33,309 nucleotides of DNA from Eubacteriaceae bacterium (GTDB lineage: Bacteria > Bacillota > Clostridia > Peptostreptococcales > Anaerovoracaceae): contig CABIWW010000006.1 of assembly GCA_902362435.1 (NCBI GenBank), positions 124,483 to 157,791 on the forward strand, in the 5' to 3' direction. The notes beneath the pieces are model-generated. The model searched no databases and had not been told where the DNA came from. It saw nothing but the letters and a program-made list of their open reading frames with translations. Shown one piece after another: positions 1,490 through 33,309 of this stretch. The number at the start of each line of letters is the position of its first letter. The first letter of the stretch is position 1. A program made the position numbers and the translations under genes.

Positions 1490-1528
1490 ACCCCCGAATT
1501 CCAACCCTTGGAATCGGGGGTTATTTAT
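1490..1528 (+). terminator. Intrinsic terminator of rplM-rpsI
   Basis: A GC-rich stem ACCCCCGA-TTCC / GGAATCGGGGGT with one bulge is followed by TTATTTATTT. A smaller perfect hairpin, GAGGC-GCGA-GCCTC, lies just upstream at 1454-1467. Confidence 0.85.
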
Positions 1529-1765
1529 TTACAGATTTACAGACTGTTCTCTGCGCCAGGTAATTAGGTTTTAGAGATTATTTTTAAGTTTAGCTCTTAA
1601 GTTTACGGATATGGTCGACGGGAATAATTATAGCGACTAAAAGTAGGCCTGAAAGGACCTCTGTATACATAAAGTATGAAGGATATGCGCTGAACAGCGC
1701 ACAGACTATGAGAGGTGGTATTTGATAAAAAATAGTAAGGTAGGATTGGCACAAGTAAAGAACAC
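1529..1765. other. AT-rich intergenic stretch between rpsI and the ASCH-PIN-GNAT gene
   Basis: No convincing gene here. The minus strand carries a 62-codon frame (1590-1778) whose translation contains a hydrophobic stretch ending in a charged tail. It has no ribosome binding site and I recognise no family; it could be a decayed fragment of a membrane protein. Base composition becomes AT-rich at about 1560, which probably marks the left boundary of an acquired segment. Confidence 0.4.
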
Positions 1766-1794
1766 TTGTTCGTGACATATAAATGTGATATAAT
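1766..1794 (+). promoter_or_regulatory. Promoter of the ASCH-PIN-GNAT unit
   Basis: TTGTTC (1766-1771) and a perfect TATAAT (1789-1794) are 17 bases apart, about 46 bases before the start codon of the 620-residue protein. Confidence 0.6.
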
Positions 1795-1840
1795 TTGTAA
1801 AGGCGAGTAGTGGTTAAATATAAAAATGGGGGAGTGAAAA

Positions 1841-3703
1841 ATGAGAAATTATTATTTAAAAATTAGAGAAAAGTTTATTCCGGATATAGAAGCTGGCAAT
1901 AAAACACATGAATATCGGTTAGCTTCTCCAGATAGAGCTAGTATTAAAGTTGGAGATACGTTAGTACTCATTTCAAATCAAAACAAAAGTGTTTTTATAA
2001 AAACAACAATAAAAAGCATTAAACATTTTCCTGGATGGCAAGAAGCATTGGAAGAAAATTGGCAGAAAGATTTTAAAAGTCTGTATAGTACAATGGATGA
2101 AGCATTAAAAGAATGTTATAGATTTTATCCTAAGAGGGAAGTAGATGCTTATGGAATAAATGTATATGAAATAGAACCGTTAAAAGAAAATTTATCGGAT
2201 GCAAGTATATTGATTGACACTAATATTATAATCAAAAGAGAAAGCGTCAATAATGTTTCTTTTGAAGTTGTCAAGCTGTTTAATTGGTTTGCAAAAAAGA
2301 AAAATCGTATATTTGTGCACAAACTTTCTAAAGAGGAAATTGCCAATTATGGTAATGAAGAAGTAAAGCAGGCTGTTTTAACGAAACTTAATTCATACGA
2401 TGAATTACCATCTTTTTCATATATTAAGGACTCTTTTTTTGAATATATAGTTTCGCAATTTTCTAAAGATAGAAATAGCGAAATTGATAATAAACTATTA
2501 AAGGAAGTATATGATGGTAATGTAGACCTGTTATTGACTGATGACAATCTTATGCTTAAAAAGGCGGAGCAGTTATATCTTAGAGATAAAGTGTTAACTT
2601 CTGCTGAATTATTATCTAGGTTTGAGCATTCAGATCCTAAGAATATTGAGTATAAAATGTTAGCGGTAAAATTAAAAGATATTGCAGAAGTGAATCTTTA
2701 TTCGGAGTTTTTTGATACGCTCAGAGAGGATTACGGTGGAATAGTTTTTGATAATTGGTTTAAAAAGAAAGCGAGAGCTAAAGAAAAGGCATATGTTTTT
2801 GAAAATGAATTAGGGATTATTCAAGGGTTCTTGTACTTAAAAGACGAAGAGCCTAATGAAACTGGGTATTTACAGATGACTCCTGCGCTTTTACCGAAGC
2901 GTCGACTGAAAGTTGGAACTTTTAAGATTGATAGTACTGGATTTAGACTTGGTGAAAGATTTTTGAAAATAATATTTGATAATGCTTTAAAAAGAGGTGT
3001 TGATGAAATTTATGTAACTCTCTTTGAAAATAAACGCGATGATGTTAAACAACTGAAGGAATTGATGGAGCGTTGGGGTTTTTGTCGACACGGGTATAAA
3101 GATAATGGTGAAATTGTATTGGTTAAGAGTTTAGAAAAATATGATGACAGCAAAACACCGAAGTACAACTTCCCTGTAATTAAAGAAAATCCGAAAGTCT
3201 TTTGGTTGCCTATATATCCACAGTATCATACAGACTTGTTCCCTGATATGATCTTGAAGAATGAAGATATGCATTTATACGAAGAGAAAAAAGCACATCG
3301 TTATGCATTAGAAAAAATATATCTATCGGGATTATATAAAACAGATGCACAGCCTGGAGACATCATGATGATCTATAGAACTGGTGAATCATACCCCAAA
3401 AAATATTCATCGGTTATCACAGGTATAGCTGTAATAGAAAGCATAACGGATACAAAATCAGTTGATGAATGCTTGAAATTATGTAAGAATCGTTCTGTTT
3501 TTGAGGAAAAAGAAATAATAGAAATGCACAAGAAAAGGCCGAGAGTAATTAAGTTGATTGATTATAAACCTTTTGTTAACAAAGTTACTTTAGAGTATCT
3601 ATGGCAACAAGGTATCCTTAATTTTCCAAGTGGACCGCAAACTTTTGATACGATTACAGAAGAACAATATGAGAATATTCTTAAATATGGAATGGAGAGA
3701 TGA
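1841..3703 (+). CDS. Multidomain protein: ASCH + PIN nuclease + GNAT + C-terminal PUA-like domain
   Basis: A 620-residue protein of unknown function. Residues 1-112 read as an ASCH (PUA-like) domain: FIPDIEAGNKTHEYR, then KVGDTLVLIS. Residues ~122-255 read as a PIN nuclease: LIDTN with D126, acidic pair E165/E166, and LLLTDDNLM with D234/D235 near the end. Residues ~265-432 resemble a GNAT acetyltransferase: GFRLGERFLKIIFDNALKRG, then LKELMERWGF; the acetyl-CoA loop is not canonical. Residues ~450-620 look like a second PUA-superfamily domain (ASCH/EVE type): PGDIMMIYRTGE, then SVITGIAVIES. PIN domains cut RNA, while ASCH/EVE domains are thought to bind RNA or modified bases, so a toxin-like or nucleic-acid-sensing role is plausible (inference). 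GGGGGAG precedes the ATG. The gene is clearly more AT-rich than the housekeeping genes around it and overlaps the next ORF by an ATGA. Confidence 0.75.
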   Translation: MRNYYLKIREKFIPDIEAGNKTHEYRLASPDRASIKVGDTLVLISNQNKSVFIKTTIKSIKHFPGWQEALEENWQKDFKSLYSTMDEALKECYRFYPKREVDAYGINVYEIEPLKENLSDASILIDTNIIIKRESVNNVSFEVVKLFNWFAKKKNRIFVHKLSKEEIANYGNEEVKQAVLTKLNSYDELPSFSYIKDSFFEYIVSQFSKDRNSEIDNKLLKEVYDGNVDLLLTDDNLMLKKAEQLYLRDKVLTSAELLSRFEHSDPKNIEYKMLAVKLKDIAEVNLYSEFFDTLREDYGGIVFDNWFKKKARAKEKAYVFENELGIIQGFLYLKDEEPNETGYLQMTPALLPKRRLKVGTFKIDSTGFRLGERFLKIIFDNALKRGVDEIYVTLFENKRDDVKQLKELMERWGFCRHGYKDNGEIVLVKSLEKYDDSKTPKYNFPVIKENPKVFWLPIYPQYHTDLFPDMILKNEDMHLYEEKKAHRYALEKIYLSGLYKTDAQPGDIMMIYRTGESYPKKYSSVITGIAVIESITDTKSVDECLKLCKNRSVFEEKEIIEMHKKRPRVIKLIDYKPFVNKVTLEYLWQQGILNFPSGPQTFDTITEEQYENILKYGMER

Positions 3704-4080
3704 TTATCATGAAACTAAAAATACTTATATCAATAAACCCAGAACATGTGAAAAATATTATTTCTGGAGAGAAAAAATATGAATACCGAAAAATTGTAGC
3801 GAAAAAGGATATCGCAGCCATTATTATTTATGAGACAGTACCAACTAAAAAAGTTGTAGCGGAAGCAGAAATATTAAATGTGATAGAACTTCCCCCGGAA
3901 GAATTGTGGCAACAAACAAAAGAGGCTTCTGGAATTACAAAAGATTTTTTTGACAAATATTTTGAAAACAGAGAAGTTGCGTATGCATACAAATTAGGAA
4001 GAGTAAAGGTTTACGAAGAGAAAAGAGAGCTAAAAGATTATGGGTTAAGAATGGCGCCACAATCTTTTGTGTATATTTAA
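3700..4080 (+). CDS. Stand-alone ASCH (PUA-like) domain protein
   Basis: A 126-residue protein consisting of essentially one ASCH-like domain. The N-terminal part ISINPEHVKNIISGEKKYEYRK matches the family pattern of a residue run before a G-E-K/KxxEYR core, as in the N-terminal domain of the preceding protein. Similar proteins are annotated as predicted transcriptional regulators with a PUA-like fold, but function is unproven. The ATG at 3700 overlaps the previous stop (ATGA) with GGAGAG just upstream; a second in-frame ATG at 3709 is an alternative start. The overlap implies translational coupling, and the pair may work as effector and partner. AT-rich like its neighbour. Confidence 0.7.
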   Translation: MIIMKLKILISINPEHVKNIISGEKKYEYRKIVAKKDIAAIIIYETVPTKKVVAEAEILNVIELPPEELWQQTKEASGITKDFFDKYFENREVAYAYKLGRVKVYEEKRELKDYGLRMAPQSFVYI

Positions 4081-4124
4081 ACCTTGTAGTAATATGCAAT
4101 CCGTGGTGAAAATTCCCAGCCCGA

Positions 4125-5433: not shown

Positions 5434-5753
5434 ATGAAACTGGAGCATAAGATCGAGCTTCGATGGCTGATCCTGTTTGCTCTGCCAACTATTTTTTCTA
5501 ACGTCTTTGGAAATCTATATACTGCGGTAGATGGCATCTTTGTTGCCCGGTTTGTGGACACGGATGCACTGTCTGCTATAAACATTTCTATGCCGATGGC
5601 ATACCTTACGTCGGCGCTGGGGATGATGTTCAGTACCGGTGGGAATGCGCTGATCGCGAAGAAAATCGCTTGTTCAGAAGCCTGTTTCGCGGATATATCA
5701 ACGGCATTTCATCGGTAATCAGCTACGATCTGGGGCGAGGAGATGCTGGATAG
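5434..5753 (+). pseudogene. MATE-family efflux transporter, internally deleted
   Basis: The first 78 or so codons read as the start of a MATE multidrug/Na+ antiporter: WLILFALPTIFSNVFGNLYTAVDGIFVARFV, then GGNALIAKKI. At about 5670 the frame diverges and stops at 5718. A second frame, from 5673 to a TAG at 5751, reads LFRGYINGISSVISYDLGRGD, which matches the middle MATE motif normally some 170-200 residues further on. The gene has therefore lost most of its length through an internal deletion with a frame change. MATE proteins are normally ~450 residues with 12 membrane segments; this copy cannot function. Confidence 0.8.
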
Positions 5754-6711: not shown

Positions 6712-7430
6712 TAGAAGCGATCTTTGTAGAAGGACTGACAAAATCCTACAATGAGAAAACTGTAGTCGATGATTTGAGCCTCTCAGTGAAAAGCGGCACG
6801 GTTTTCGGATTGCTCGGCGCAAATGGCGCGGGAAAAAGCACTGCGATAGAGTGTATGCTCGGCACGAAACAGGCGGATACGGGAACGGTTCGTCTGCTGG
6901 GGCAAGATCCGAAAAAACATCGCCGTGCGCTTTTTCAGCGTATCGGCGTGCAGTTTCAGGAAGGTGACTATCAGAAAGAAATCAAGGTTTCAGAGCTTTG
7001 TGAGGAAACCGCGAGTCTTTACCGCAAGCCTGCCGATTGGAAGAGGCTGTGCGCTAGGTTCGGTATCGGTGATAAGACAAACGTGGCAGTCAAAGGTCTA
7101 TCGGGTGGTGAACGGCAGCGGCTTTTTATTGTGCTGGCGCTGATCCCACGGCCGGAGCTTGTGTTTCTTGACGAGCTGACTACCGGGCTTGATGCAAAAG
7201 CGCGGCGCAGCGTGTGGAAAACGCTGGAATCGTTGAAAGAACAGGGTCTTACGATTTTTCTGACTTCTCATTTTATGGATGAAGTGGAGGCATTGTGTGA
7301 TGAGATCTGCATTTTGAAAAAGGGTGCTCCCGTTTTTCGTGGAACCGTGGAGCAGGCAAAGAAACAGTGCAGCTGCGAACGCTTTGAGGACGCTTATCTG
7401 CAGCTTTCGGATGAGGAGGTGGACGCATGA
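6708..7430 (+). CDS. ABC transporter ATP-binding protein (drug-export type)
   Basis: A 240-residue ATPase with Walker A GANGAGKST, Q-loop near VQFQE, signature LSGGERQRL, Walker B LVFLDE and an H-loop in LTSHFMDE. The residue after the catalytic E is L instead of the usual P (DELTTGLD rather than DEPTTGLD). It resembles the CcmA/DrrA type that powers ABC-2 exporters. It overlaps both the AraC gene upstream and the permease gene downstream by an ATGA. Confidence 0.92.
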   Translation: MIEAIFVEGLTKSYNEKTVVDDLSLSVKSGTVFGLLGANGAGKSTAIECMLGTKQADTGTVRLLGQDPKKHRRALFQRIGVQFQEGDYQKEIKVSELCEETASLYRKPADWKRLCARFGIGDKTNVAVKGLSGGERQRLFIVLALIPRPELVFLDELTTGLDAKARRSVWKTLESLKEQGLTIFLTSHFMDEVEALCDEICILKKGAPVFRGTVEQAKKQCSCERFEDAYLQLSDEEVDA

Positions 7431-8167
7431 AATGCTTTTTTACTTTTTTAAAAACGGAGCTGAAGCTAAGCCTGCGAGACATGAATATGGTGATATTTGC
7501 CGTTATCATGCCGCTTGTGATCTTCATTATCCTTGGCATCATTTATGGCACAAAGCCCGCTTATGACGGTGCAGACTATACATTCCTGGATCAGTCTTTC
7601 GGAGCTGTCAGTGCAGTTGCTGTTTGCGCAAGCGGATTGATGGGTCTGCCGCTGGCTGTATCCGGTCTGCGAGAGATGAAGATCCTGAAGCGGCTGCGCG
7701 TCACGCCGGTCAGTCCCGTGCTCATTCTTGGCGTTGAGCTGGCGATGTATGTTGTCTACTGTGCCGCTTCCATTGCGATGCTGGCGGTTGCAGCGCTTTT
7801 GTGGGGCGTACAGCTGCGCGGCTCGCTTCCGGCTTTCCTCGGGAGCTGGGCGCTTACCATGATTTCGACCCTTTCCATCGGTATGCTGGCAGGCGGCGTA
7901 GCAAAGGACACCAGGCAGGCCAGTGCCATTGCGTCGATTCTCTATTTCCCGATGTTGATATTTTCCGGCACGACGTTGCCGATCGAGGCCATGCCGCCCG
8001 TGATGCAGAAGGTCGTCAGCTTTTTTCCGCTGACGCAGGGACTTACGATGATGAAAAATGCTTTTTTAGGTATCGGCGCGGGAGGCATCCTGTTACCGAT
8101 GTGTATAATGCTTGGAGTTACCGCGCTTTGTGCGATTCTCGCTGTTCGCTTTTTCCGCTGGGAATAG
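7427..8167 (+). CDS. ABC-2 type transporter permease
   Basis: A 246-residue membrane protein with about six predicted segments: MVIFAVIMPLVIFIILGII near the N terminus, further hydrophobic stretches around residues 60, 105, 140, 175, and a last one at 220. The C-terminal part carries the ABC-2 type feature FPMLIFSGTTLPIEAMPPVMQKVVSFFPLTQG. It is the partner of the preceding ATPase, and the exported substrate is unknown. Its start overlaps the ATPase stop by an ATGA. Confidence 0.9.
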   Translation: MKCFFTFLKTELKLSLRDMNMVIFAVIMPLVIFIILGIIYGTKPAYDGADYTFLDQSFGAVSAVAVCASGLMGLPLAVSGLREMKILKRLRVTPVSPVLILGVELAMYVVYCAASIAMLAVAALLWGVQLRGSLPAFLGSWALTMISTLSIGMLAGGVAKDTRQASAIASILYFPMLIFSGTTLPIEAMPPVMQKVVSFFPLTQGLTMMKNAFLGIGAGGILLPMCIMLGVTALCAILAVRFFRWE

Positions 8168-10676: not shown

Positions 10677-11193
10677 GCGCGAGTGTGCCAGGCATGGCAT
10701 AAGTCTTACGGGTGAAAGTCCCGTCACGGGTATTTACCGCCAAGTGTAGCGAACCACAAGCCGAAGACAACAATGTTTAGGGGGAGGAAGTGGTGTAGCA
10801 AAACCGTTGAGCCTACGAACAGAAACTGGATATGAGGCTAAATGGCGGGCGAGATTGCTCGACAAATCGAAGCCCAAAAGGTAAACGTAATGCCAAGAGA
10901 GTAAATCCAGAGGTTGTGCGGTGAAAGACTTGTGTCTTACCCTGGGAGGCCTAGGTAGCGCACCGAAAGGGCGTGCGATAAAAAGCTCATACCTAGGAGT
11001 CAGCTGAGGCCATAGTATCCCTAAGAAGCAATGGGAAAAGGGTCTAATGTCAATATATTGCAAATCGCTGTAAGCAAGGCAAGAATAGTCCGAAATCGAG
11101 GATATGCTTAACAAGTGGAAACGTATGTCTGCGGAAGCAAAAGGTAGAGGGGATGATTTCTAGCATCTTTACAAGCAGAAGGAGAAGCAACAA

Positions 11194-12492
11194 ATGGAAT
11201 TAATCGAGTGGATCTTACAAGATGAAAATATTGATAAGGCTATCAAATCAGTCAAGAAGAACAAAGGTGCATACGGAATTGATAAGATGTCCGTAGAAGA
11301 TCTTGATGAGTATTTTGCCGCACATAGGGAAGAAATTAAATCCCAAATACGTGACGGCAAATACAAGCCAACACCAGTAAGAAGAGTCTACATACCTAAG
11401 TCTAATGGTAAGAAGAGACCTCTAGGAATACCAACAGTTGTGGATAGAGTGGTACAACAAGCTACAGCGCAAGTTTTGTCGCTTGGATATGATAAGTACT
11501 TCTCAGAACATAGCTACGGATTCCGCCCAGGCAGAAGTTGTCAACAGGCAATAGAGGAAGCACTTGTATACCTCAACGAAGGATACGAATGGGTAATAGA
11601 CTTGGATATTGAGAAATATTTTGATACTGTAAACCACGACAGATTAATTTCGATACTCAGAGAACGTGTCAATGATGCGAAAACACTACGACTAATTCGC
11701 CAGTTCCTGCAAGCGGGGGTGATGGAAAACGGACTGATTAGTCCAAGCGAAGAGGGGGTACCTCAAGGCGGTCCTCTTAGTCCAGTACTGTCCAATGTAT
11801 ATCTAGACAAATTAGATAAAGAACTGGAAGCAAGAGGACTCTGTTTTGTCAGATATGCTGATGACTGTAATATCTTTGTCAAAAGCGAAATGGCAGCAAA
11901 CAGAGTAATGAAGTCTATCACAAGCTGGCTAGAACGTAAGCTTAGGTTAAAAGTAAGTGCAACTAAAACAAAAGTTGTCAGACCACCGAAAAGCAACTTT
12001 CTTGGATTCACATTCTGGAAATCCAAAGATGGATGGAAATGCAAGCCGGCAAATGACCGCAAGAAAAGACTGTATGACAAAACAAGAGCAATACTATGTA
12101 GAAGGAAGGCAGTCGCAAGACCTATGAAGTCCACATTTGAGCAACTTAACTGGTTAATTCGTGGATGGATAAACTACTACCGAATTGGCAGTATGAAGAT
12201 GTTCTTAGAAGAATATGGGCAATGGTTCAGACACAAGGTGAGAGTGGTGATACTCAAGCAATGGAAGAAACCTAGGCGCATATACCTGAATCTTCATAAA
12301 CTGAACCAAATCGTAGGATGTGGGTTCACACACGAGGAAATTTTTAAGGTCGCAAATAGTAGACTAGGATGGTACAAAAGAAGCGGAATGTATGTAGTGA
12401 ATTTTGCAATCAGTCCAGAGATACTTGGACGAAAAACAAAGAGCCGACCAGGATTGGTCGACCCATTAGCGTATTATCTGAGCAATATTTGA
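11194..12492 (+). CDS. ltrA: Group IIC intron reverse transcriptase/maturase
   Basis: A 432-residue intron-encoded protein. The reverse transcriptase fold starts with KNKGAYGIDKMSVEDL and has PKSNGKKRPLGIPTVVDRVVQQA, FRPGRSCQQAIEEAL, and the catalytic FVRYADDCNIFV with the YADD aspartates. The C-terminal part has the maturase segment with WLIRGWINYYRIGSM. There is no HNH endonuclease domain. Length and sequence resemble GsI-IIC RT. It binds the intron RNA for splicing and copies it during retrohoming. The ATG is preceded by AGAAGGAGAAGCAACAA. Confidence 0.95.
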   Translation: MELIEWILQDENIDKAIKSVKKNKGAYGIDKMSVEDLDEYFAAHREEIKSQIRDGKYKPTPVRRVYIPKSNGKKRPLGIPTVVDRVVQQATAQVLSLGYDKYFSEHSYGFRPGRSCQQAIEEALVYLNEGYEWVIDLDIEKYFDTVNHDRLISILRERVNDAKTLRLIRQFLQAGVMENGLISPSEEGVPQGGPLSPVLSNVYLDKLDKELEARGLCFVRYADDCNIFVKSEMAANRVMKSITSWLERKLRLKVSATKTKVVRPPKSNFLGFTFWKSKDGWKCKPANDRKKRLYDKTRAILCRRKAVARPMKSTFEQLNWLIRGWINYYRIGSMKMFLEEYGQWFRHKVRVVILKQWKKPRRIYLNLHKLNQIVGCGFTHEEIFKVANSRLGWYKRSGMYVVNFAISPEILGRKTKSRPGLVDPLAYYLSNI

Positions 12493-21451: not shown

Positions 21452-21483
21452 GAACATACGTTTGCAATGTTGAACTTGTGTTC
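21452..21483. promoter_or_regulatory. Two LexA-type SOS boxes at the radical SAM operon promoter
   Basis: GAACATACGTTT (21452-21463) fits the Bacillus-type SOS box core GAAC-RNRY-GTTY. GAACTTGTGTTC (21472-21483) is a perfect GAAC-N4-GTTC palindrome that covers the -35 box. Their centres are 20 bases apart, close to two helical turns. Confidence 0.6.

Positions 21484-33144: not shown

Positions 33145-33309
<165 letters not shown>

Follow-up and report, generated by a model that had tools for sequence, protein, structure and literature searches.

Within a window of 33,309 nucleotides, by which we mean the whole stretch of DNA analysed here and which probably stems from a gut clostridial bacterium, an AT-rich cassette of two genes, A and B, lies 3' of rpsI, the stop of the first overlapping the start of the second by 4 bases (ATGA). 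This raises the questions of what the two proteins do together and whether they represent a known system. The preliminary description of this DNA had proposed an ASCH-PIN-GNAT-PUA protein with the acidic residues of a PIN nuclease and an overlapping ASCH gene in an AT-rich segment, and this layout was confirmed by the open reading frames and the domain matches (Table 1). We favour the reading, with a probability of about 0.6, that A and B form a mobile two-gene defence module of toxin-antitoxin type, belonging to the (PIN-)GNAT-EVE/ASCH family, in which B restrains A.

Table 1. Features of the A-B locus, in window coordinates.
Feature	Coordinates	Strand	Basis
A, 620-aa ASCH-PIN-GNAT-EVE protein, PDC-M11A family with an extra N-terminal ASCH domain	1841..3703	+	ORF; PADLOC; model and fold matches
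B, 126-aa stand-alone ASCH protein, ZmASCH type, PDC-M11B / GevA family, probable antitoxin	3700..4080	+	
N-terminal ASCH domain of A, residues 1-115, PH0355/PF0455 type, K21-E24-R26	1841..2185	+	
PIN nuclease domain of A, residues 117-266; D126, E166, D216, D235	2189..2638	+	Pfam PIN models in homologous segments; conserved acids
GNAT acetyltransferase domain of A, residues 269-436; RLGE loop 369-372, Y391/T393, GF413-414, E424	2645..3148	+	
EVE/PUA-superfamily domain of A, residues 440-620; H463, K492, Y494	3158..3700	+	
LexA/SOS-box-like palindrome GAACACTTGTTC (GAAC-N4-GTTC), overlapping the -35 of the operon promoter	1760..1771	+	Exact match
Promoter-like element: -35 TTGTTC 1766-1771, 17-nt spacer, TATAAT 1789-1794, TGA before it	1766..1794	+	Sequence; geometry shared with L001 and L002
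Terminator-like hairpin 3' of rpsI, left border of the variable site	1503..1522	+	Terminator scan

The pair is a member of a catalogued family and not a new system. Both genes, adjacent and overlapping, match the PADLOC candidate system PDC-M11, taking the model matches apart from the PADLOC system rules: A matches PDC-M11A over residues 123-617 (E 7.2e-153) and B matches PDC-M11B (E 3e-41). PDC stands for phage defence candidate (PMC11514479); a literature search found no paper with the term PDC-M11. Bell et al. (2020) describe GNAT-EVE proteins, often with a PIN domain, that have an ASCH neighbour in almost all operons, and predict a toxin-antitoxin function where PIN-GNAT-EVE and ASCH genes form operons close to restriction systems; their paper gives credit to Iyer et al. 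(2013) (PMC7641849). The window pair shares with those operons the PIN, GNAT and C-terminal EVE domains as well as the ASCH neighbour, and a close relative is likewise found near a restriction system, whereas an ASCH-PIN fusion and SOS control go unmentioned in the parts of that text dealing with these operons (PMC7641849). An AAA_17 ATPase gene, frequent and optional in the operons of Bell et al. (PMC7641849), was not found by Pfam among the ten downstream ORFs of the window. Finally, Escherichia phage PhiR47_2 (PV340567.1) carries GNAT-EVE and ASCH genes deposited as toxin GevT and antitoxin GevA, names that come from the GenBank record, and both match the same PADLOC models as the window pair. 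As here, a GNAT-EVE gene is overlapped by an ASCH gene; unlike A, GevT measures 357 aa and has neither a PIN nor an N-terminal ASCH domain, and its genes lie 3' of cI in a lambdoid prophage. Literature searches, one of them swamped by unrelated words, found no paper on GevT/GevA, and none with toxicity, neutralisation or phage-resistance results for family members.

The earlier suggestion of an undescribed system is therefore ruled out, as PDC-M11, the operons of Bell et al. (2020) and the GevT/GevA deposit already cover the pair. The accompanying proposal, a defence unit that is toxin-like or senses bases and has a binding partner, fared better and is, at the level of sequence, partly supported by PDC-M11, the prediction of Bell et al., the names GevT and GevA, and the loss of A but not of B in several genomes. 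What is new here, as predicted from the DNA, is an extra N-terminal PH0355-type ASCH domain outside the PADLOC matches and a putative SOS-type box over the -35 of the promoter; new as well is the asymmetry in the loss of A and B.

All six PDC-M11A matches in A leave out the N-terminal ASCH domain, the earliest starting at residue 122. By sequence profile, this domain is of the PH0355 type (E 5.1e-12). A family search with A yielded 2590 proteins at E<=0.001 among 7997 candidates scored, and among the best 120 of the 2590, which were listed, the domain occurs in 118, i.e., those longer than 600 aa. Its residues K21, E24 and R26 were kept in 119 of 119 sequences (these 118 and the window protein). 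The PIN-GNAT-EVE proteins L029 and L030 are 41% and 42% identical to A, and the best 120 relatives listed for the 508-aa L029 all span 424-528 aa, and are thus too short to hold an N-terminal ASCH domain. As the N-terminal domain is of the PH0355 type and B of the ZmASCH type, the PUA-superfamily domains are no simple copies of one another. The extra domain, a third one of the PUA superfamily, possibly sets the choice of target.

The GNAT and PUA folds of A were predicted with good confidence by the structure model, as the preliminary description had anticipated. The fold-search list for A was filled by the GNAT domain, so the predicted PIN domain has its support from sequence alone: Pfam PIN_12 was found in seven of nine homologous segments, N-terminal to GNAT. 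Searched by sequence against solved structures, neither the PIN nor the EVE segment had a significant match. In two of 119 close relatives (P0019 and P0020) PIN acids are replaced (D126E together with D216G), and in locus L005 (8349-8798) the first PIN aspartate is a glycine, while GNAT is kept in all three. The PIN nuclease may be impaired in these proteins, and the cut is thus possibly dispensable in some members. For the GNAT domain, which precedes the C-terminal EVE domain, the best solved matches by sequence profile were Naa50 (E 5.7e-5) and then a spermine/spermidine acetyltransferase (1.1e-3), and N-alpha-acetyltransferases were also nearest in the VIA-align list. In a Foldseek search with A, the top match was an uncharacterised GNAT from Listeria; TmcA (2zpa), which acetylates tRNA cytidine, came at rank 50 and was the sole enzyme acetylating a nucleic acid among the fold matches listed for A. 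A site resembling that of N-alpha-acetyltransferases would suit aminoacyl-tRNA, and GNAT toxins acting on aminoacyl-tRNA are cited by Bell et al. (PMC7641849).

The structure of B was modelled with a pLDDT of 94.4 and a TM score of 0.86 to ZmASCH (ZMO0922, PDB 5guq/5gus), which was also the best sequence match of the B family profile (E 7e-29). ZmASCH is reported to cleave single-stranded RNA and not DNA, Tyr47 and Ser128 contributing to nucleic-acid binding or RNA cleavage (PMC5615036). These residues correspond to Y44 and S122 of B, invariant in 22 of 22 sequences, whereas the position of Lys53 (K50 in B) is variable across the family; by likeness, B might be an RNase. The closest solved relative of B thus being a crystallised ASCH-type RNase, biochemical work can start from a known structure.

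ASCH proteins also include YqfB (PDB 9kyf/9kyh), an amidohydrolase of N4-acetylcytidine (ac4C) that requires Lys21, Thr24 and Arg26 (PMC6972931), and B might likewise be an enzyme that removes the acetyl group placed by A. YqfB did turn up in the fold searches, at rank 19 with A (region of A unspecified) and at rank 14 with B (E 4.6e-3), and it shares with the domains studied here the ASCH fold and an equally spaced lysine and arginine. However, the YqfB-type Lys-Thr-Glu triad with its threonine nucleophile at K+3 is absent, B having K25, E28 and R30 in 22 of 22 sequences, and the glutamate at K+3 in B and in the ASCH domain of A (119 of 119) indicates that the nucleophile is replaced in both ASCH domains of this system. 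As B is, in addition, far closer to ZmASCH than to YqfB, we consider it very improbable that B acts in this way. A YqfB-like deacetylase partner is disfavoured by the residues. The GNAT likeness, the ZmASCH residues Tyr47 and Ser128 in B and the lack of the YqfB nucleophile together point to RNA, probably tRNA, as the target and favour B as a binding antitoxin; RNA or tRNA as the target of A is a tentative assignment, with the odds against it.

A toxin-antitoxin pair predicts that A is not found without B. In each of the 16 chromosomal loci open to assessment (L001-L008, G323, G340, G562, G570, G631, G660, G251 and G816), B lay adjacent to an intact A, in agreement with the conserved partner expected earlier. 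The window protein served as query for L001-L008, which are close kin, and the remaining loci came out of surveys that covered 391 class genomes and two sets of family genomes (296 and 200). In eight genomes B was intact and A absent or broken: no A was present within 1.5 kb of B in G357, G388, G441, G591 and G676, an EVE remnant lay beside B in G324, and B was kept next to a broken A in G151 and, in G509, next to an A disrupted by an IS21-type insertion. This survey covered 1.5 kb beside each B, the B of G676 lying near a contig end on one side. Left out of the count were G675 and G839, in which A ends at the contig end, G088, in which both genes are truncated, weak matches to A, and weak B-like ASCH matches (G421, G429, G433, G463, G726 at a contig end, and G873), which probably belong to other ASCH families. 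Such one-sided loss of A is as predicted for a toxin-antitoxin pair, and natural losses of this kind hint at which of the two genes carries the cost; where B stands alone, it could also have a separate role.

On mobile elements, 16 phage and 33 plasmid records matched A, and the five examined each had a B homologue, A being split into two ORFs in L040. Phage psiM100 has both genes; phage psiM2 has a B that is 95.7% identical to that of psiM100 and gave no match to A. No close relatives of A were found in viral contigs. GevT DNA was present in 274 of 5426 E. coli genomes (273 at a coverage of at least 80%) and GevA DNA also in 274 of 5426, the totals being counted separately and the genome lists not matched. 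In PhiR47_2, GevT/GevA (L037, 5243-7429) lies directly 3' of cI, with kil/gam on the other side. In phage lambda, rexAB occupies the place directly 3' of cI, and by analogy the position of GevT/GevA would suit expression in the lysogen and exclusion of other phages.

The phage-borne forms bear on a proposal of Bell et al. (PMC7641849), by which PIN-GNAT-EVE proteins would remove the toxic acetylated tRNAs produced by phage GNAT-EVE proteins, so that A would guard the cell against GevT-like toxins of prophages. While GNAT-EVE proteins without PIN do occur on phages, and PIN-GNAT-EVE is tied to host defence (PMC7641849), B goes with both forms, the retention of B where A is lost or broken fits A as the costly partner, and PIN-GNAT-EVE is also found on phage psiM100. 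Furthermore, A retains the GNAT signature, which would be unexpected in a pure remover. Such a guarding role is therefore very unlikely.

A had a patchy distribution among related genomes: of 391 class genomes nine contained it (E<=1e-20), and of 200 family genomes four did (E<=1e-15), centre genomes included in both cases. Comparison of the window with L001 showed that similarity ends after rpsI, restarts over 1823-4081 and ends again, and with L002 it was confined to 1721-4099. In L001, a Phd/ParE-type toxin-antitoxin pair (7104-7658) lies between rpsI and A. In the genus of G002, rpsI was found in 36 of 49 genomes; 30 loci were fetched, of which 24 were readable for 1.5 kb 3' of rpsI, and the cassette was present only in L059, from the same genome as L001, and absent within 1.5 kb in 23 of 24. 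DNA similarity between the window and L062-L064 crosses the rpsI hairpin, one of two terminator-like sites in a scan that expected 1.5, and stops at 1529-1531. The region downstream of rpsI thus varies within one genus and resembles a site of insertion. Also elsewhere, the flanking genes of the cassette vary from locus to locus.

In L002 (93%), the nearest relative with readable surroundings, genes for a 5-methylcytosine methylase and a HaeIII nuclease lie directly upstream, and in five ruminant-gut loci (L003, L004, L005, L007 and L008) an HNH_5-type gene directly follows B (by sequence; Pfam on two). These neighbours would suit the view of Iyer et al. (2013), as related by Bell et al. (2020), that GNAT acetylates a DNA base and that EVE and ASCH domains recognise the modified DNA, working with or against restriction. 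This view also draws on EVE and some ASCH domains binding, or being predicted to bind, modified bases, and on family members near type I restriction systems (PMC7641849). On the other hand, PIN is an RNase fold, the closest solved relative of B cleaves single-stranded RNA (PMC5615036), and the GNAT domain is nearest to Naa50 and spermine/spermidine acetyltransferases, with only TmcA, which acts on tRNA, among the listed fold matches. In addition, Pfam recognised no methylase or nuclease beside the pair, nor any other defence gene, among the ten downstream ORFs (up to 14048). Thus, we regard DNA modification as rather unlikely. In the five ruminant-gut loci (L003, L004, L005, L007, L008; 10237-11058, 7602-7985) an XRE-type regulator, A, B and the HNH_5-type gene appear as a four-gene set. 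In L058 (1495-3198) a distant B-like ASCH protein adjoins, as judged by eye, a cytosine-5 DNA methylase-like gene, possibly another ASCH-restriction neighbourhood.

An SOS-type promoter of the A-B operon is an addition to the preliminary description. The motif GAACN4GTTC, the SOS box consensus of B. subtilis as quoted in PMC4234289, was picked after the conserved block had been seen, and exact matches in the window numbered 2 against 0.45 expected, with at least 2 in 9 of 100 shuffles. The two closest readable loci, L001 and L002, keep the box and the 17-base spacing upstream of A, although the spacer sequence of L001 differs, and the -10 of L002 reads TACAAT. A consensus promoter scan found 10 promoters against 12.4 expected from shuffles and missed that of the operon because TTGTTC matches the -35 consensus at only 3 of 6 positions. 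In 22 upstream regions of 900 bases, the box lay within 100 bases of the start in three (window, L001, L002) and was absent near A in 19 (14 chromosomal, 5 phage or plasmid), the match in L039 being at -713 only. L003-L008 had no box in the 900 bases before A, and in L003, L004, L005, L007 and L008 an XRE-type gene lies upstream of A (by sequence; Pfam on one). SOS control would thus apply locally at most.

For recA and lexA, G001 (the genome of L002) and G002 (that of L001) stood in for the genome of the window. In both, recA is preceded by the same box (L102 and L101), whereas recA of G003-G005 lacks it. Four of the five genomes, G001 included, had a LexA_DNA_bind match, and G002 had none; the lexA-type gene loci of G001 (L096), G003, G004 and G005 contained no exact box. 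Counts of the motif against a reversed-pattern control were 19 vs 11 in G001, 5 vs 35 in G002, 24 vs 128 in G003, 23 vs 50 in G004 and 11 vs 112 in G005, without clear genome-wide enrichment. The argument for SOS control draws on position, recA and the cassette having one site each in G001 and in G002. As judged from the sequence, the operon promoter may be switched on by DNA damage, and a LexA-type operator would predict when the system fires. An SOS-type promoter and a place behind rpsI would also suit a housekeeping or stress-response RNA processing unit with no tie to phages. However, the patchy distribution, the occurrence on phages and plasmids, the differing flanks and the 23 of 24 loci of one genus without the cassette within 1.5 kb 3' of rpsI make this most improbable.

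For the favoured toxin-antitoxin module, the following course is proposed. LexA would repress the operon until DNA damage or an infection that activates RecA releases it. The ASCH and EVE domains of A would then pick out their nucleic-acid target, most probably a tRNA or transcript with a particular modified base, GNAT would acetylate it or its charged amino acid, and PIN would cut RNA, so that translation and phage growth would stop. B would restrain A, either through direct binding or by occupying the target that A acts on. A more elaborate version is a damage-gated device in which, once LexA is lifted, GNAT marks a nucleobase or tRNA, the EVE and PH0355-type ASCH domains read, PIN cleaves RNA that bears the mark, and B protects self molecules by shielding their mark or erasing it; the reading domains may recognise the acetyl mark of GNAT or a pre-existing modification. 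This version is unlikely; if true, it would amount to restriction-modification at the level of RNA, under an SOS switch. The (PIN-)GNAT-EVE/ASCH family is widespread and listed as a candidate defence system.

About 33 bases upstream of a putative DNA-repair pair, TIGR03916 (rSAM_link_UDG)/TIGR03915 (21516-23821), is the only other exact SOS-type box of the window (21472-21483), which suggests that this pair may be regulated by LexA. A further box with one mismatch was seen by eye beside it (21452-21463). Elsewhere in the window, a 94-aa MatE fragment (5434-5718) 3' of a DUF3795 gene looks like a truncated efflux gene, a group II intron (Rfam RF02001) containing an ORF for a reverse transcriptase/maturase occupies 10764-12492, and the window closes with the start of a bacterial 16S rRNA gene, up to model position 148 (33145-33309).
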